Part shown: positions 18,739 to 34,847 of the stretch, piece by piece
Numbering within the stretch: position 1 is the first letter of the stretch
Layout of the letters: every line of letters starts with the position of its first letter
NCBI GenBank assembly: GCA_001789745.1
Contig: MGAN01000003.1
Coordinates: 1,684-38,057 of the forward strand
Direction: 5' to 3'
Length of the DNA: 36,374 bases
Origin: Candidatus Roizmanbacteria bacterium RIFCSPLOWO2_01_FULL_40_13
GTDB taxonomy: Bacteria; Patescibacteriota; Microgenomatia; UBA1406; GWC2-37-13
Notes under the pieces: model-generated
Told to the model about the DNA's origin: nothing
What the model saw: the letters and a program-made list of their open reading frames with translations, nothing else
Database searches by the model: none
Position numbers and translations under genes: made by a program

Positions 18739-19806
18739 TTAATTTTGAACGATGATCTCTCTCTCCTTTTCACTTTTATAATCCATCCTAATATAAATTG
18801 CCTTTCCCCGCCTTTTAAGCAAATCGATAATCTCCCCCGCTTTCTCTCCCCACTCAATACACAGAATGTTGCCGGGCTTTAAATATTTCTCCAGACCCAG
18901 GTGCTTAAATTCTTCTCGGTCCTCGATGTTATATAGATCAACATGCACGAACGCTTTGATTAATCGATTAATCAAAGCGTATTCATAATAAATAACAAAA
19001 GAGGGGGAAATTATATTATTTATGCCTAGAATTTCAGCCAACCCCTTGACAAAAACAGTTTTTCCCACTCCCAGATCCCCTTGGAGGATAAAAATTAAGG
19101 GTTTTTCGTCAACTTTTTTTGCAAATTTGCCATAGAGATATCGGGCAATTTTTTTTGTTTGTGAGGGGGATTCCGAGAAATACTTTTGCGATTCGGAAAA
19201 AACAATATCTCCTTTTCTGACAATCTTAATTCTGGGACGTGTCAGATCCATGACCGTCGACGGTTTAATCCGCGGCAGCTTTCCCTTATCTATTATCAAA
19301 TCTATCAACTGTTTTTTCTTTTCCGGCAACTGATTCAATAGCGATTTAATTGAGTAATGGGGAGATTTTCCCGCTAGGTTTGCCGAGGTGGCGGTAATCG
19401 GCCTGCCAAATTTATTGGTTAAATTGAGTAAAAATTGGTAGTCCGGTAATCTAACCCCCAATGTTCCTCTTTCTGACTCGAGCAGTCTAGAAACTTGATG
19501 TTTTGAATCAAGGATAATGGTAAAAGGCCCGGGCAGTAATTCCTGCAAAACTTTTTTTTGTTTTTCATTAACATGCACTTGGTCTTGTAACATTAAAAAA
19601 TCCGGGATAAATACGGCAATTGCTTTACCTGTTGGCCGATTCTTAAATTCAATCAGTTTTTTTACCGCTTTTTCATCCGTGGCATCTGCCAGCAATCCAT
19701 AAACGGTGTCAGACGGTGAAACAACGATTCCCCCCTTAGCCAAAGCTTGTATTATCACGTCAATTATCAGCTTTTCCTTTTCATTTTTATATTTTATTAT
19801 TCTCAT
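18739..19806 (-). CDS. tsaC/tsaE: TsaC-TsaE fusion (t6A biosynthesis)
   Basis: A 355-residue two-domain protein. Residues 1 to about 205 form a YrdC/Sua5-type TsaC domain (SPSDTVYGLLADA, LPGPFTII, LGVRLPDY, TATSANLAG), which makes threonylcarbamoyl-AMP from Thr, bicarbonate and ATP. Residues about 215-355 are TsaE: Walker A GDLGVGKT (243-250), ISPSF, then HVDLYNI and IEWGEKA. TsaE is the ATPase that resets the TsaBD complex. Residues about 277-285 come from a 30-bp perfect palindrome. tsaD follows in the same direction. Divergent from ftsH across a 40-bp region holding back-to-back promoters. No TsaB is encoded in this window. Confidence 0.92.
   Translation of the reverse strand: MRIIKYKNEKEKLIIDVIIQALAKGGIVVSPSDTVYGLLADATDEKAVKKLIEFKNRPTGKAIAVFIPDFLMLQDQVHVNEKQKKVLQELLPGPFTIILDSKHQVSRLLESERGTLGVRLPDYQFLLNLTNKFGRPITATSANLAGKSPHYSIKSLLNQLPEKKKQLIDLIIDKGKLPRIKPSTVMDLTRPRIKIVRKGDIVFSESQKYFSESPSQTKKIARYLYGKFAKKVDEKPLIFILQGDLGVGKTVFVKGLAEILGINNIISPSFVIYYEYALINRLIKAFVHVDLYNIEDREEFKHLGLEKYLKPGNILCIEWGEKAGEIIDLLKRRGKAIYIRMDYKSEKEREIIVQN
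18951..18980. repeat. Perfect 30-bp palindrome inside the TsaE domain
   Basis: ACGCTTTGATTAATC followed immediately by its exact reverse complement GATTAATCAAAGCGT, with no loop. Read in frame as A-L-I-N-R-L-I-K-A. Confidence 0.95.
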
Positions 19807-21905: not shown

Positions 21906-22823
21906 ATGAAGACTCTCTTACTTATCGACGGCAACGCGATCATGCACCGCGCCTTCCATGCTTTACCTCCCTTCAAAACCAAAGACGGCACGCCAACCAA
22001 CATCATCTACGGCTTTTTCTCTATGCTGCATAAAGCCGTAACCGATTTTAAACCCAGCCATATTGTAGTCTGTTTTGACACTCCCAAGCCTACTTTCAGA
22101 AATCGGTTATTCAAAAAATATCAGGCTCAAAGACCGCCCCTGGTAGACGATTTTAAATCACAGATTCCGCTGCTTAAAGAAGCGCTGAAAAAAAGCGGAA
22201 TCAATTATCTGGAAAAGGACGGATATGAGGCTGACGACATCATCGGAACCCTTACCAAAACAGCTGAAAACAAAATGAAAGTGTTGATACTTACTGGTGA
22301 TAAAGATATTTTACAGCTGGTAAATAAATATAACTTTGTACTGGCTCCCCAAGTTGGGCTATCGAATATCAAATTATACGACGAGACCGAAGTAAAAAAT
22401 AAAATGTCTGTTTCCCCTGCAGAAATACCGGATTTAAAAGCCTTGACGGGCGATCCTTCTGATAATTATCCCGGGGCCAAAGGTATCGGTCCCAAAACCG
22501 CGGTGAAACTAATCGCGGAGTATAACTCTGTGGAAAATTTATTGAAAAATCTGGATAAGGTTGATAACGAAAAAGTCAAAACGATTTTGGCGATAGAAAA
22601 GGAAAACATCCTCCTTTCGAAAAAACTTGCCCAAATCGTCCGAGATGTTCCGATTGAGTTTAATCTGAAAAGCGCTGTTTTTAACTGGTTCAAACCGGCT
22701 CTGAAAGGTTACTTTGATAAATTGGAGATTAAATCCCTTAAAATCCGCATCTTTGCCCAAAAAAAACCGGATAAAGAAAAAGGGGTTAAAAAAGAATCCC
22801 GGAGCCAGATGGAATTATTCTAA
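21906..22823 (+). CDS. Stand-alone PolI-type 5'-3' exonuclease (FEN-like)
   Basis: A 305-residue protein equal to the N-terminal nuclease domain of DNA polymerase I. It begins LLLIDGNAIMHRAFHAL, then VVCFDTPKPTFRNRLF, the metal-binding run DGYEADDIIGTL, LTGDKDILQLV and the helix-hairpin-helix segment GDPSDNYPGAKGIGPKTAVKLI. It should remove RNA primers and flaps during lagging-strand synthesis and repair. No polymerase domain follows. The C-terminus ends in QMELF (301-305), matching the Q-x-x-L-F sliding-clamp-binding consensus, so it may be recruited by DnaN. Its stop overlaps the stop of the convergent CvpA-CAP gene by 4 bp. Confidence 0.9.
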   Translation: MKTLLLIDGNAIMHRAFHALPPFKTKDGTPTNIIYGFFSMLHKAVTDFKPSHIVVCFDTPKPTFRNRLFKKYQAQRPPLVDDFKSQIPLLKEALKKSGINYLEKDGYEADDIIGTLTKTAENKMKVLILTGDKDILQLVNKYNFVLAPQVGLSNIKLYDETEVKNKMSVSPAEIPDLKALTGDPSDNYPGAKGIGPKTAVKLIAEYNSVENLLKNLDKVDNEKVKTILAIEKENILLSKKLAQIVRDVPIEFNLKSAVFNWFKPALKGYFDKLEIKSLKIRIFAQKKPDKEKGVKKESRSQMELF

Positions 22824-23815
22824 TTCGTGAACTCCTGCACGAACATCTTGCCGTATATACCTCCATCAACTACCCCAATTCCCACTTTACCGTAGTCCTC
22901 GGATAAAATATTCTTTCTGTGTCCTTCGGAGTTCATCAAACCGTCATGGGCAATAAAGACGTCGGGAGCAAAAGCCAAATTTTCCCCGACTACCAGATAA
23001 CTTATTCCTTTTCTATCGGCTCGATCTGCGGGTGTTGAACCGTCAACTGCGGACACATGCGAAAAAAACCCGTGCGTAAACATCTCCATCGCATATTCTC
23101 TGGCTAAATCTCTTAAATTATAGTCAAAAGACAAAGACTTAATGCCGCGCGACTCTCTCTCTTTATTGACGGAGTTAAACATCTCGATTTCCGAAGTCGA
23201 ATCATAGTCAAGCTGTTTTTTCTCCGGCTTAATCCCCAGATCCACTGTTTCATTCGATCTGGGCTTGATCGTCAAGAAGTTTAGAGTTTCATTGACCGCT
23301 CCCCCGAAGATATTTTTAAGATATTTTTCCGTTGATCTGGAAAGGTTGATGAAGTAAGGCCCGCTGCGGGAATCAAGCAAAGCCTGCTTAATCTGGCCTC
23401 GTACAGGAAAGGCGAATACGAAGCTGACAAAGAATAAAAAAATGGCTGCCGCTTGGATTATAGCGGCCAAAATTCCTAACGAAATGTTTAAAGGATGTTT
23501 TTGAAATTTCTCGAATAATCTGGCTAATAACCTTAACACGATCACCGAAAAAACCAATTCCGTCAGAAACCAAGCAATAAAAAAACCTGATGCCTGCGAA
23601 ATTCCCTTGGGAATTGAGAAGTTTAAAATCAGTAACTTGCCCAAAAATGGGTAAAACTTAAACGAAATTATCAAAGACAGGATAAACGCCAAAGCCTCAA
23701 GGATGGTGTTTATAAATCCTTTCTGGGTCATGACAAAGTAGATGATTATCACGATAAAAACCAGATCGATCCAATTTCCCTTGAGCGAATATTTTTCCAG
23801 AAACTGCTCCAACAT
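22820..23815 (-). CDS. CvpA-like membrane protein fused to a CAP/SCP domain
   Basis: A 331-residue protein. Residues 1 to about 150 have four hydrophobic helices with the CvpA-like start WIDLVFIVIIIYFVMTQKGF. A linker of about 55 residues leads to a CAP (cysteine-rich secretory/YkwD-like) domain at about 210-331: MFNSVNKERESRGI, LARE-x2-EMFTHGFFSHVS, GENLAFAP, GLMNSEGHRKNIL and VGIGVVDGGIYGKMFVQEF. Conserved His and Glu residues of the CAP cavity are present. The CAP domain should face outside the membrane. Function is unknown; bacterial YkwD-type domains are linked to spores and the cell wall. Divergent from a small membrane gene and preceded by a -10 box 6 nt before ATG. Confidence 0.85.
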   Translation of the reverse strand: MLEQFLEKYSLKGNWIDLVFIVIIIYFVMTQKGFINTILEALAFILSLIISFKFYPFLGKLLILNFSIPKGISQASGFFIAWFLTELVFSVIVLRLLARLFEKFQKHPLNISLGILAAIIQAAAIFLFFVSFVFAFPVRGQIKQALLDSRSGPYFINLSRSTEKYLKNIFGGAVNETLNFLTIKPRSNETVDLGIKPEKKQLDYDSTSEIEMFNSVNKERESRGIKSLSFDYNLRDLAREYAMEMFTHGFFSHVSAVDGSTPADRADRKGISYLVVGENLAFAPDVFIAHDGLMNSEGHRKNILSEDYGKVGIGVVDGGIYGKMFVQEFTN

Positions 23816-23857: not shown

Positions 23858-24253
23858 ATGGGGTTTTTTGATACCATACCGGCAGATTTAAAACAAAATA
23901 TATTTTATACGCTACTTTTCATCATTTCTCACAATTTCCCGGCTATTTTTTATTCTTTGGGAATTATTATTTCAGCCGTTATACTTTTAATCAAACCGAC
24001 CAGATGGAAAACGCTCTTATTGTTTGGTTTTATTCTTCTTTTATTTGCGTTTGAATATAGTAAGCATATAGTCGAACCCCTCAAGGAGCAGATACTGAAT
24101 TCATTAATTACCGAACGGCCTCATTATAAAGCAGCCTGGATCGTTAATATTGTCCTGGTCAATGCCTTTCCCATACTGCTACCTGCATCAGGCTGGTTTT
24201 TGGTGATAACCGGTTTATTATTCTTATTTTTGGAAAAAAGAAAGATTGATTAA
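23858..24253 (+). CDS. Small membrane protein of unknown function
   Basis: A 131-residue protein that I do not recognise. Three hydrophobic stretches are seen: about residues 25-44, 52-66 and 98-125, the last broken by a Pro-Ala-Ser-Gly kink. The C-terminus is basic (EKRKID) and probably cytoplasmic. No conserved catalytic motif is evident. The start is supported by the -10 box 6 nt upstream. It is divergent from the CvpA-CAP fusion and lies just upstream of the glmS promoter region; its stop overlaps the likely glmS -35 box, so it need not be in the same transcript. Confidence 0.65.
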   Translation: MGFFDTIPADLKQNIFYTLLFIISHNFPAIFYSLGIIISAVILLIKPTRWKTLLLFGFILLLFAFEYSKHIVEPLKEQILNSLITERPHYKAAWIVNIVLVNAFPILLPASGWFLVITGLLFLFLEKRKID

Positions 24254-24274
24254 TGAATTTATGTTTGCTAAAAT
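24246..24274 (+). promoter_or_regulatory. glmS promoter
   Basis: The -35 box TTGATT (24246-24251), a 17-bp spacer and the extended -10 TGCTAAAAT (24266-24274) form the best promoter in the window. Transcription would start near 24281, about 35 nt before the ribozyme cleavage site. Confidence 0.7.
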
Positions 24275-24314
24275 AGACTTGCTCTTTGGAAATAGGGGAG
24301 TTATGATTCTTTCG

Positions 24315-24480
24315 AGCGCCTGACCCCGACGTAACGTCGGGGTGACGAGGAGAGGGGTCCGACGTAACGTCGGACAATCGGACCTCCGATTTAATCGGGG
24401 AGTATCAGCGGAAACCCTCAAGCCTAGGTTTGGCTGTTTATTTTAAAAATCGGGAGTAATTCCGAGATTAAAGAATAAAC
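24315..24480 (+). ncRNA. glmS ribozyme (glucosamine-6-phosphate-responsive)
   Basis: The segment upstream of glmS carries the conserved parts in order. The cleavage site is A24315/G24316 in AGCGCC. Then comes a stem CCCCGACG-TAA-CGTCGGGG (24324-24342) and the invariant TGACGAGG (24343-24350). GAGGG (24352-24356) pairs with CCCTC (24415-24419). AGCGGA (24407-24412) supplies GCG to pair with CGC of the cleavage-site strand. Next are a small AGCC/GGCT stem and a final domain GTTTATT/AATAAAC containing TCGGGA-GTAA-TTCCGA, a GNRA-capped hairpin. In known glmS ribozymes, GlcN6P acts as cofactor for self-cleavage and lowers glmS mRNA. Two extra hairpins (24359-24375 and about 24377-24393) expand the loop after GAGGGG compared with Bacillus examples. 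Confidence 0.9.
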
Positions 24481-24519
24481 TATAACTGCTCCTGATATTC
24501 TTCAAAGAAATGCAATACT

Positions 24520-24588
24520 TGTCATGCTGGCTTGGTTCAACCTGTGCTTTTTCTAAAGATCGGATTCCGAAATACATTCGGAATGACA
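24520..24588. repeat. TGTCAT-ended palindromic repeat in the glmS leader
   Basis: It starts TGTCATGCTGG and ends CGGAATGACA; inside, ATTCCGAA-ATACA-TTCGGAAT is a perfect 8-bp hairpin (24564-24584). It lies between the ribozyme and the glmS start codon, so it is part of the mRNA leader. Confidence 0.75.
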
Positions 24589-24630
24589 ATGTATTTTTAA
24601 TTTTTCATTTTAAATTTTTAATTTACTATC

Positions 24631-26400
24631 ATGTGCGGGATATTTGCCGTAGTCAACGATAATTCAGATAACGCAGCCCAGACTGTCCTTAAAGGACTAA
24701 AAAAGCTCGAGTACCGGGGTTATGATTCCTGGGGTATTGCCGTTAAACCGGCCGATAAACCAGCTCTTCAGGTGGATAAACATATTGGTAAGATCGGAGA
24801 CGCCAATACCGATCTACCCAAGGGTAAAATTGCCATCGGTCACACTCGTTGGGCCACCCACGGCGGTGTAACCGATCAAAATGCCCACCCCCACCTTGAC
24901 TGTAACGGAAGGATAGCGGTGATTCATAACGGTATTGTCGAAAACTATCGGGATCTGAAAGATAAGCTTATGAAAAAAGGGCACAGATTCAGCTCGCAGA
25001 CCGATACTGAAACAGTCGCACATCTGATAGAAAATAAAAAAAATTCCTTAAAAGAAGCGGTCTTTTCGACTTTTAATGAATTAACCGGCTCCAATGCTAT
25101 CGGAGTTCTCGATTATCAAAGTGAAACGGTTATTGCCGCCAGAAACGGTTCACCTCTGGTCGTCGGATTCGATAAAAAAAATAGCCAATATTTCTTGGGC
25201 AGCGACGTACCGGCTTTTTTAAAATACACCAACCGCGTTTACTTTCTTAAAGACGGAGAAGGCGTCACCATAAGCAAAGCCGGAGTCAATCTTTACGACC
25301 TCTACAGTGGAAAGAGGAAAGAATTCACCCCCCAGGTGCTTAATTGGAAATTGGAAGATGCGGAAAAATCAGGATATCCCCATTTTCTTTTGAAAGAAAT
25401 CCATGAGCAAAAAAACACCATCTCCGGGACAGCCTCACTCAATCTGAATGAGCTGAAACAAGTAGCCGATCTCATCAGGAAAAAATATAAAGTTGTTCTC
25501 ACGGGCTGCGGTACAGCTTCTTACTGCGCATTAGCCGGTAAATATTATTTATCAAATGTTGGCGTCGAGTCACAGACTTACCCGGCAAACGAAATTATGC
25601 CATTTGTGCGTTTTATAGATAAAAAAACCTTGTTTATCGCCGTTTCCCAGTCGGGTGAAACCGCAGATACCCTGATTGCCGTCAAAGCTGCCAAAACCAG
25701 AGGTGCCAAAACTGTCGCGTTAGTCAATGCACGCGGTTCGACTTTAGAAAGACTAACGGATATTGTCTTGCCTGTTGGCGCTGGTCCGGAGATCGCCGTC
25801 GTCTCAACCAAAGCCTTCACCGCCCAGCTGGCAACTTTATATCTGTTAAGTAAAGCTTTGCAGGGAAAAATAAGCCAGGCAAAACAAAAATTACGCAAAT
25901 TACAGGGAGAAATCAAAAAGCTGTTCACCCCGATCGCAATTAAACACTTAATTGCGATCGCTAAATCTTTGCTTGATGAAGAGCATATTTACCTCATCGG
26001 CAAACATTCGAATTACCCTGCATCTCTTGAGTTTGCCTTAAAGATTAAAGAAACTTCTTACCTTCATGCCGAACCTTTTGCCGCAGGTGAGCTAAAACAC
26101 GGAGTGATCACTTTAATTCAAAAGGACACGCCCTGTTTTATTTTGGCTTCAAACGATGAATCCAAAGAAGAAGTTCTCTCAAGCGCATCCCAGCTTAAAG
26201 CCCGCGGTGGAAGAATAATAGGAATAGCACCCTTCGAAGCAGAAGAATTCGACGAAGTGATAAAAACTCCTGATCTGGGAGATCTGACGATTTTCCCCAA
26301 TATCATCGTCGGTCAGCTTCTGGGTTACTATCTTGGTATCGGCCGCGGCGCCGACCCCGACAAGCCGAGAAATCTCGCCAAAAGTGTCACCGTTAAATAA
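24631..26400 (+). CDS. glmS: Glutamine:fructose-6-phosphate amidotransferase
   Basis: A 589-residue GlmS making glucosamine-6-phosphate for peptidoglycan and surface sugars. Cys2 (MCGIFAVV) is the glutaminase nucleophile; RGYDSWG, GHTRWATHG, AHPHLDC and HNGIVENY complete the N-terminal glutaminase domain. Two SIS domains follow (GCGTASYCALAGKYYL; SQSGETADTL; STKAFTAQLATLYLLS; ELKHGVITL), ending DKPRNLAKSVTVK, the conserved C-terminus. Residues about 434-444, between the SIS domains, are encoded by a 30-bp palindrome. Expression is probably controlled by the ribozyme in its leader. The start codon has no clear Shine-Dalgarno sequence. Confidence 0.97.
   Translation: MCGIFAVVNDNSDNAAQTVLKGLKKLEYRGYDSWGIAVKPADKPALQVDKHIGKIGDANTDLPKGKIAIGHTRWATHGGVTDQNAHPHLDCNGRIAVIHNGIVENYRDLKDKLMKKGHRFSSQTDTETVAHLIENKKNSLKEAVFSTFNELTGSNAIGVLDYQSETVIAARNGSPLVVGFDKKNSQYFLGSDVPAFLKYTNRVYFLKDGEGVTISKAGVNLYDLYSGKRKEFTPQVLNWKLEDAEKSGYPHFLLKEIHEQKNTISGTASLNLNELKQVADLIRKKYKVVLTGCGTASYCALAGKYYLSNVGVESQTYPANEIMPFVRFIDKKTLFIAVSQSGETADTLIAVKAAKTRGAKTVALVNARGSTLERLTDIVLPVGAGPEIAVVSTKAFTAQLATLYLLSKALQGKISQAKQKLRKLQGEIKKLFTPIAIKHLIAIAKSLLDEEHIYLIGKHSNYPASLEFALKIKETSYLHAEPFAAGELKHGVITLIQKDTPCFILASNDESKEEVLSSASQLKARGGRIIGIAPFEAEEFDEVIKTPDLGDLTIFPNIIVGQLLGYYLGIGRGADPDKPRNLAKSVTVK
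25931..25960. repeat. 30-bp palindrome inside glmS
   Basis: CGATCGCAATTAA, loop ACAC, then TTAATTGCGATCG: a 13-bp perfect stem, read in frame between the two SIS domains. Confidence 0.95.
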
Positions 26401-33011: not shown

Positions 33012-34847
33012 ATGTCTATGACCCATTTGCAACTTCGCAAGCTATTTTCCGAGTACTGGGAAAGTAAAGATCACAAACTCATTCCAGCAATACCTCTGAT
33101 TCCCAAGGATGACCCGACAACCCTTTTTACGGGTTCCGGCATGCAGCAGTTGGTACCCAATTTATTAGGCGATATCCACCCTTTGGGCAAAAGATTATAC
33201 AACATCCAAAGGTGCATCAGGGCGCAGGACATCGAGGAAGTCGGGGACAACCGCCATGACACTTTTTTTGAAATGATGGGAAATTGGTCTTTGGGTGATT
33301 ATTTTAAGAGGGAACAGTTAAATTGGTTTTGGGCATTTTTAACCCGTGAATTAAAACTCCCGGAGGAAAAGCTTTATGTCTCTGTATTTGGCGGAACAAA
33401 AGAAATTCCCGCCGACGAAGAAAGCGTCGAGATATGGAAAAAAATCGGTATACCTGAGAAAAGAATTGTCAGGTATAATACCAAGACCAATTGGTGGTCA
33501 AGAGCCGGAGCGCCGGACAATATGCCTGACGGAGAACCGGGCGGTCGAACCTCCGAAGTCTTCTTCGAATTTATCGACAGGCCTCATGATCCGATGTTTG
33601 GAAAAATTTGTCATCCTAATTGTGACTGTGGAAGATTCCTGGAAATCGGTAATTCTGTTTTTATGGAATATAAAAAACACCAAAGCGGATTGGTTGAATT
33701 ACCGGCCAAAAATGTCGATTTCGGCGGAGGACTGGAAAGAATCACCATGGCGCTGGAAAACCAAAACGATCTATTTTTAACCAACATTTTCAGTAAAATC
33801 GTCCGCACTATCGAAAAAGTCACTGGTAAAAAATATTCCGGTTATCAAAAATCAATCAGGATCATCTCCGATCACCTAAAAACATCCGTCTTCTTAATTA
33901 GAGAGACTGTAACTCCCTCCAATAAAGAACAAGGATATGTATTACGCCGGCTTTTAAGAAAAACGGCTTTTAATCTCCATAAAATTGGCGTCAATTTAAA
34001 TCAGACTCCCTCGCTTGAAGAAATTGTCGAAAGCGTGATTGACACTTACGGAAACATTTATTTTGACAAAGAAAGAGACTTAAAACAAATCGTGCCTGTA
34101 ATCAAAGATGAAATCGATAAATTCGGAAGGGCTTTATCACGAGGCATAAAAGAGATTGAAAAGATTACCGAAAAAGACCTGGAAAATAAAGCTTTTTACT
34201 TATACCAATCTTACGGGTTGCCGCTTGAACTGCTGGAAGAAATCTTTGTCAATCTAAAAAAGAAGGTAAACAAAGAAAAATTCAGAGAAGAATTTAACAG
34301 ACACCGAAAGTTGTCCAGAGATTCTTCATCGGGTAAATTTAAAGGCGGTCTGGCTGATGTCAAAGAGCAGACAATCAAATATCACACCGCTACTCACCTG
34401 CTGCATCAGGCTTTATTTGATGTCTTGGGTGACGGGATCAGACAGGAAGGATCAAATATTACCAGCGACAGACTGAGATTTGATTTCTCCGCTCCCAAAA
34501 AACCCGAAAAAGCCGACTTGGAAAAAGCCGAAAGAATCATCAATCAAAAAATCAAAGAAGATTTAGCGGTTAAATTCAAGATCATCCCCAAGCAGGAAGC
34601 TTTTAAAATTGGGGCCCGGGCATTTTTTAAGGAAAGGTATCCCGACCTGGTCAAGGTTTATCTTATTGGTTCCGCAAACTCGCCGCAAGACGCTTACTCG
34701 AAAGAATTTTGCGGTGGCCCGCATGTAAAAAATACCGGTGTAATCGGTAGTATGGAAATCTACAAATTCGAAAAAATCGGCAGCAATCTATATCGCATTT
34801 ACGCTCGTGAAAAGCTCCCACGACCTAACGGTCGGGGATTCAATTAG
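33012..34847 (+). CDS. alaS: Alanyl-tRNA synthetase lacking the C-terminal domain
   Basis: A 611-residue AlaRS; E. coli AlaRS is 876. The class II catalytic core is complete (LFTGSGMQQLVPNLLG, FFEMMGNWSLGDYFKRE, ENSVFMEY-type segment, GGGLERI), followed by the tRNA-recognition region and the editing domain with its Zn-site motifs H-x3-H (TATHLLHQ) and C-x3-H (CGGPH). The dimerisation/C-Ala region is absent, as often in reduced genomes. The last 10 or so residues (KLPRPNGRGFN) are translated from a palindromic CGACC-TAAC-GGTCG repeat, so the natural end may have been displaced by that insertion. TATAAT lies 8 nt upstream of the ATG. Confidence 0.95.
   Translation: MSMTHLQLRKLFSEYWESKDHKLIPAIPLIPKDDPTTLFTGSGMQQLVPNLLGDIHPLGKRLYNIQRCIRAQDIEEVGDNRHDTFFEMMGNWSLGDYFKREQLNWFWAFLTRELKLPEEKLYVSVFGGTKEIPADEESVEIWKKIGIPEKRIVRYNTKTNWWSRAGAPDNMPDGEPGGRTSEVFFEFIDRPHDPMFGKICHPNCDCGRFLEIGNSVFMEYKKHQSGLVELPAKNVDFGGGLERITMALENQNDLFLTNIFSKIVRTIEKVTGKKYSGYQKSIRIISDHLKTSVFLIRETVTPSNKEQGYVLRRLLRKTAFNLHKIGVNLNQTPSLEEIVESVIDTYGNIYFDKERDLKQIVPVIKDEIDKFGRALSRGIKEIEKITEKDLENKAFYLYQSYGLPLELLEEIFVNLKKKVNKEKFREEFNRHRKLSRDSSSGKFKGGLADVKEQTIKYHTATHLLHQALFDVLGDGIRQEGSNITSDRLRFDFSAPKKPEKADLEKAERIINQKIKEDLAVKFKIIPKQEAFKIGARAFFKERYPDLVKVYLIGSANSPQDAYSKEFCGGPHVKNTGVIGSMEIYKFEKIGSNLYRIYAREKLPRPNGRGFN
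34817..34837. repeat. Small palindromic repeat forming the AlaRS C-terminus
   Basis: CCC-A-CGACC, loop TAAC, GGTCGGGG: an 8-bp stem with one bulged A, followed by ATT. The right half (AACGGTCGGGGATT) recurs at 35009-35022. Confidence 0.7.

Follow-up and report, generated by a model that had tools for sequence, protein, structure and literature searches.

A glmS ribozyme with an expanded core in the glmS leader of a Candidatus Roizmanbacteria genome, and a candidate stem closing the 5' end of its transcript

A glmS Ribozyme Upstream of glmS

The leader of glmS in a Candidatus Roizmanbacteria genome appears to contain a genuine and complete-looking glmS ribozyme, a member of a known family that is predicted to control this gene; we put the probability of this reading at roughly 0.9. 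The glmS ribozyme is the textbook example of a metabolite-dependent ribozyme and has mostly been discussed in Firmicutes. We know of no published account of glmS ribozymes in CPR bacteria. Our literature search, itself incomplete, found none, and the full RF00234 alignment of Rfam may contain such sequences.

The element lies in the window, i.e., the whole 36,374-nt stretch of DNA that was analyzed, and all leader features described below are on the + strand. A search against all Rfam families matched RF00234 (glmS ribozyme) to positions 24304–24491 with 59.1 bits (E = 2.5e-11), so the element passed the covariance check against the gathering cut-off of 37 bits that the sequence-only reading of a glmS ribozyme upstream of glmS had called for. 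The match spans model positions 1–167, which is the full length of 167, and RF00234 is the sole Rfam family above its curated threshold within the 36-kb window. The score is below those of Bacillota examples, with the Listeria ribozyme reaching 149.8 bits. The conserved core strands A|GCG, GACGAGG, and GCGGA are all present, and the core is complete as judged by its sequence. On folding, the leader (24281–24520) was more stable than 200 of 200 dinucleotide shuffles (z = −5.3).

The element had been assigned the entire interval 24246–24630; this extent is now refined to the Rfam match, followed by a 139-nt spacer that contains a dispersed repeat-like element (24519–24592; elsewhere in the genome it occurs once nearly in full and twice in shorter form). 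The claimed positions of promoter and gene both held. A putative sigma-70-like promoter, TTGATT-17-TAAAAT, is located at 24246–24274 (a consensus match only, 9 of 12 bases, with TG before the −10 element), and places the predicted transcription start at about 24281. The glmS gene (24631–26400, starting with ATG at 24631) encodes a glutamine-fructose-6-phosphate aminotransferase of 589 aa with two SIS domains and a glutamine amidotransferase domain by Pfam, and its TIGR01135 score of 581.9 bits is above the cut-off. A candidate conserved leader peptide (ATG ATT CTT TCG AGC GCC TGA, 24303–24323) was dropped because the relatives lack it.

Architecture of the Core

The predicted self-cleavage dinucleotide, A24315|G24316, lies exactly where it had been proposed, within AGCGCC and in a region where the Rfam alignment is free of indels. 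AGCG at the cleavage site is common to nearly all relatives; in two of them (L014, L041) nucleotide −1 is G rather than A. The 5' strand of P2.2, GCGCCUGA (24316–24323), begins at the cut and overlaps the P1 hairpin GACCCCGACGUAACGUCGGGGUG (24322–24344), which is supported by both the Rfam alignment and the fold and corresponds to the P1-like stem noticed earlier. The invariant strand of that reading is GACGAGG (24344–24350), which includes the active-site G and the 5' strand of P2.1, CGA; these residue roles are taken from PMC11602151. P2 is formed in the Rfam alignment by GAGGG (24352–24356) and CCCUC (24415–24419), enclosing AGCGGA within the 3' strand of P2.2, AUCAGCGGA (24404–24412), as had been described; P2 is absent from the minimum-energy fold, the folding program being unable to draw pseudoknots. 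Further downstream are the P3 hairpin AGCC/GGCU (24421–24435), whose loop GGUU can pair with AACU (24484–24487) as P3.1, and P4, GUUUAUU/AAUAAAC with a purine internal loop (24436–24480, alignment and fold). The GNRA-capped hairpin claimed for the 3' domain is P4.1 (24450–24465) with a GUAA loop, so that both the tetraloop and the conserved internal-loop purines of the family are present.

The double pseudoknot P2–P2.1–P2.2 can be formed, with P2.1 CGA/UCG in place and P2.2 differing from the classical form in the place of its bulge. P2.2 joins the nucleotides that follow the cut (G1 C2 G3 N4 N5 N6 G7) to CNNCGG. In its classical form nucleotide 6 is bulged; this register leaves a C5/A64 mismatch in the window, whereas bulging one C, at nucleotide 4 or 5, gives a full helix with UCAGCGG (24405–24411). 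The core was compared in 40 CPR ribozymes and six from other phyla (Listeria, Paenibacillus, Acetoanaerobium, two Oscillospiraceae, and Cetobacterium), and P2.2 forms fully in all 46 when one bulge is allowed at nucleotide 4, 5, or 6. Shuffled partners reached a mean of 36 and a maximum of 43 of 46, and none of 5000 shuffles equaled the real pairing. Covariation is seen, for example, in UAAG/CUACGG, UGUG/CUGCGG, CUUG/CAGCGG, and CCAG/CGGCGG. The migrating bulge agrees with a mutational study of the T. tengcongensis ribozyme, in which core mutants were partly rescued by bulge-shifted forms of P2.2 (PMC7125110).

P3.1 covaries in a permutation test on 28 CPR sequences outside family f50 (p = 0.0027) and in the pooled set without f50 (p = 0.0002). 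In the window only 4 bp are possible, one of them G-U, and in the minimum-energy fold a GUUAU/AUAAC pairing, which extends the closing stem described below, would compete with P3.1.

Extra Hairpins in an Expanded Core

The two extra hairpins that had been noted as a variant architecture are real. H1, GUCCGACGUAACGUCGGAC (24357–24375, from the fold), lies between P2 and P2.1, and H2 (24384–24402) between P2.1 and P2.2; they flank AAUCGGA (24376–24382), the P2.1 3' strand, whose UCG pairs with CGA at 24346–24348. We propose that both are peripheral additions around P2.1 that would leave the active site intact. The distance from GACGAGG to the 3' strand of P2.2 is 55 nt in the window versus about 19 nt in the standard ribozyme. 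Standard spacing of 17–21 nt is found in five of the six outgroups, in 12 short CPR sequences of one family, and in several others, while an expanded core of 52–95 nt occurs in half of the CPR ribozymes (20/40) and across several families. Most expanded cores place an AUCGGAC motif, the counterpart of AAUCGGA in the window, between two hairpins of unrelated sequence. In relatives, H1 keeps its position and differs in sequence; L006 has the second extra hairpin only.

The content of H2 in sister genomes makes it plausible, from sequence comparison, that the extra stems arose by the capture of dispersed hairpin repeats. In G001, H2 (G001:C31:25977–25995) contains CCTGAGCGAAGTCGAAGGA, which is present in 11 copies genome-wide (with at most one mismatch) and in none in the reversed control, and H2 of G002 (G002:C2:11380–11406) and G004 (G004:C9:73812–73838) holds related repeats. 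In the window, the same 15-nt palindrome occurs in P1 (24326–24340) and in H1 (24359–24373). A dispersed-repeat origin of this palindrome was rejected because the genome has no exact copy beyond these two, both within this ribozyme. P1 and H1 of L008 and L015 share another identical palindrome, different from that of the window; such shared palindromes suggest duplication or copying of a hairpin within the ribozyme.

A Candidate Closing Stem at the Transcript 5' End

A further pairing, designated P0, lies outside the RF00234 model. It joins the predicted 5' end of the transcript, GCTCTTTGGAAATAGGGGAGTT (24281–24302), to the sequence directly 3' of the ribozyme, GCUCCUGAUAUUCUUCAAAGA (24488–24508), in the minimum-free-energy fold. 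Since P0 encloses the ribozyme, the functional leader appears to be larger than the Rfam model.

In a permutation test, each upstream strand was paired both with the downstream strand of the same leader and with those of all other leaders. For 28 CPR sequences the mean for own pairs was −17.7 kcal/mol versus −12.6 kcal/mol for permuted ones (sd 0.63, p = 5e-5), and a control with the downstream strand shifted by 60 nt gave p = 0.15. Six Bacillota and Fusobacteriota controls gave p = 0.004, with 0.56 for the shifted control. P0 as a CPR-specific feature was therefore rejected; it seems to belong to glmS leaders in general and to be missing from the Rfam model. Outside CPR, P0 was observed in the glmS leaders of Cetobacterium (L171), Acetoanaerobium (L173), and Listeria (L177), the last with the pairing GUUUCCUUG/CAAGGAAAC plus GGAGG/CCUCC. 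In most sequences there is little variation in where the 3' strand of P0 starts. Where the promoter is clear, the first nucleotide of the 5' strand is within 1–2 nt of the predicted transcription start, a coincidence that is suggestive only, because the strand used in the search itself began two nucleotides before that start. No description of P0 was found in the literature search, which returned other riboswitches only.

Distribution in CPR and Beyond

Among 96 near relatives, of which 67 encode a full-scoring glmS, RF00234 is present in 24. In a phylum-wide sample 23 of 380 genomes were positive, about 22 after removal of one locus (L049 in G225, 24.5 bits) counted as false because GACGAGG is missing and no glmS start was found nearby. 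A locus scoring below the cut-off in G133 (L048, 35.1 bits) was kept, having a full core and glmS downstream. Apart from the false L049, glmS follows the ribozyme in every locus read, with a gap of 17–141 nt where a regular start motif was found, and the order promoter, ribozyme, glmS is present in most relatives. Both counts are lower bounds, because glmS leaders scored as negative hold further copies: three RF00234 matches (L192 at 42.6 bits, above the cut-off; L181 at 36.4 and L190 at 28.8 bits, below it) and three ribozymes recognized by motif only (L217–L219). A strict Rfam filter thus undercounts glmS ribozymes among the relatives. Some ribozyme-negative glmS genes begin near the apparent end of the upstream gene.

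With many positive relatives and phylum-wide genomes that have glmS downstream, and with at least 12 family labels among them, the predicted glmS ribozyme is a widespread, multi-family feature of CPR and not a single extension of its range. The earlier expectation of a wider range thus stood as regards CPR, and its picture of a mostly Firmicutes element proved too narrow, Cetobacterium (Fusobacteriota) and, among the controls, Deinobacterium chartae being positive as well.

The leader of glmS in G031 (L190) is short, diverged, and ribozyme-like, with a P4 domain that is apparently much reduced; it is possibly a minimal natural glmS ribozyme. Viral contigs were searched twice. The sole locus with a Bacillota-type core pattern in the first search was not a glmS ribozyme by Rfam, and a filter for ribozyme-shaped patterns in the second gave only apparent phage coding sequences.

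Host Genome and Other Genes in the Window

The host had been read as a probable CPR bacterium, which is borne out by a genome of 1.04 Mb and a GlmS that is 77% identical to that of Candidatus Roizmanbacteria. The closest named GlmS proteins (68–77% identical) all come from Candidatus Roizmanbacteria MAGs.

Three other ORFs in the window were noted. The ORF at 18739–19806 (−), adjoining tsaD, combines Sua5/YciO/YrdC (TsaC-like) and TsaE domains in an apparent TsaC-TsaE fusion, and that at 22820–23815 (−) fuses a Colicin V production (CvpA) domain to a CAP domain. The 611-aa product of the ORF at 33012–34847 (+) is a class II tRNA synthetase of the alanyl type that carries tRNA-synt_2c and SAD domains and is apparently shorter than usual alanyl-tRNA synthetases.

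Proposed Mechanism and Alternative Readings

In the proposed sequence of events, the mRNA would start at about 24281 and its first nucleotides would pair with 24488–24508 to form P0, enclosing the ribozyme. As glucosamine-6-phosphate accumulates, it would bind beside the double pseudoknot core and act as a cofactor for the cut between A24315 and G24316. The cleaved glmS mRNA would start with a 5'-hydroxyl at G1 and be degraded, and synthesis of the sugar would therefore fall. Membership of the family is the ground on which we infer glucosamine-6-phosphate dependence, cleavage, the 5'-hydroxyl end, and decay through RNase J. In B. subtilis, RNase J1 degrades the 5'-hydroxyl product of glmS cleavage (PMC11780869), and a 25-nt leader is reportedly released (PMC11476745). 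Judged only by its position, P0 may sequester or protect the 5' end of the mRNA before cleavage. The broadest version of our reading, that P0 is an unrecognized 5'-terminal closing stem of glmS leaders from Bacillota and Fusobacteriota to CPR, that it locks the triphosphate end and protects the uncut mRNA until cleavage unlocks a 5'-hydroxyl, and that CPR cores grew by repeat capture, is tentative and falls somewhat short of even odds.

The element might be a chance match, or its contig might come from Firmicutes and have been misassigned to this CPR genome during binning, the assembly being a Patescibacteria/CPR MAG of 21 contigs and 89% completeness. Contamination and a recent transfer of glmS from Firmicutes are nevertheless unlikely, because the window GlmS is only about 40% identical to the Bacillota or Fusobacteriota proteins, against 68–77% within Candidatus Roizmanbacteria, and because four of the five genomes of the same genus have a ribozyme before glmS; the sister genomes refute contamination in practice, and we give it next to no weight. 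Decay of the ribozyme, leaving a recognizable fold whose core, with H1, H2, and the shifted bulge, is uncut or independent of the ligand, is improbable. It would account for a score below those of Bacillota ribozymes and for the C5/A64 mismatch in the textbook register of P2.2, and in vitro work has shown the importance of the 5-53 pair (Tte numbering; PMC7125110), but the same study found bulge-shifted mutants partly rescued, all 46 sequences pair once the bulge may move, and expanded cores in 20 of 40 CPR ribozymes from several families are not expected of a decaying sequence.

The readings that concern P0 carry more weight. That it is not a functional stem, its complementarity stemming from AU-rich or repeat-derived flanks, is rather unlikely and yet the likeliest of these alternatives: the window duplex taken alone is modest (−21.8 versus −17.9 for shuffles, 15% of which are as good), the test in family f50 is uninformative (p = 0.93) because its members share GGGA/UCCC, and P0 was not seen in L004, L007, and L047 among the sequences compared. 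Against this stand the permutation tests in both CPR and the Bacillota and Fusobacteriota controls with their negative shifted controls, the near-constant start of the 3' strand, and the location of the 5' strand at the predicted transcription start. An active ribozyme might also exert its control by a route other than decay triggered by the 5'-hydroxyl, acting on translation or leaving the mRNA stable, because P0 would keep the cut-off leader bound; in several relatives P0 is an extended duplex of high stability (about −20 to −25 kcal/mol) that could hold the leader in place. This we regard as a little less likely again than a nonfunctional P0. Against it, genes for RNase J (489.6 bits) and RNase Y (488.6 bits) are present in the genome, each scoring above the cut-off; Listeria and other Bacillota have P0 as well, and decay is the established route in B. 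subtilis (PMC11780869). Cleavage followed by decay thus stays our preferred reading; the original observation is confirmed at the level of sequence and its interpretation supported.

The broad and diverse presence of this element in Patescibacteria suggests that an RNA catalyst regulates the supply of a cell-wall precursor in reduced genomes, which would point to an own, regulated supply rather than only a ready-made precursor from the host. The CPR copies also offer many natural core variants, such as shifted P2.2 bulges and inserted stems, that probe the needs of the active site. A functional P0 would change the view of the regulatory step and would open the 5' end of the uncleaved transcript to direct testing.

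Comparison with Known Systems

The window element shares with RF00234, as known from the B. subtilis, T. tengcongensis, and B. anthracis structures, the AG cleavage site, GACGAGG, P1, P2, P2.1, P2.2, P3, a candidate P3.1, P4/P4.1 with its GNRA loop, the AAAG internal-loop purines, and the location upstream of glmS. Unlike the family, it has H1 and H2 beside P2.1, with 55 nt from GACGAGG to the P2.2 strand where Bacillota have about 19 nt, and its P2.2 bulge is shifted and its P3.1 short. The P4 internal loop reads UUAAAG and not ACAAAG on its 3' side. In Subdoligranulum variabile (L175) a hairpin is inserted at the same place as H1, between P2 and P2.1, but H2 is lacking and P2.2 is standard (CGGCGG). 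McCown et al. in 2011 are said to have described glmS variants of Deinococcus-Thermus, another phylum, with additional stems inside the catalytic core. By sequence, the ribozyme in the window belongs to a known family and combines an enlarged core with a displaced P2.2 bulge in a CPR host; P0 adds a further and more general lead.
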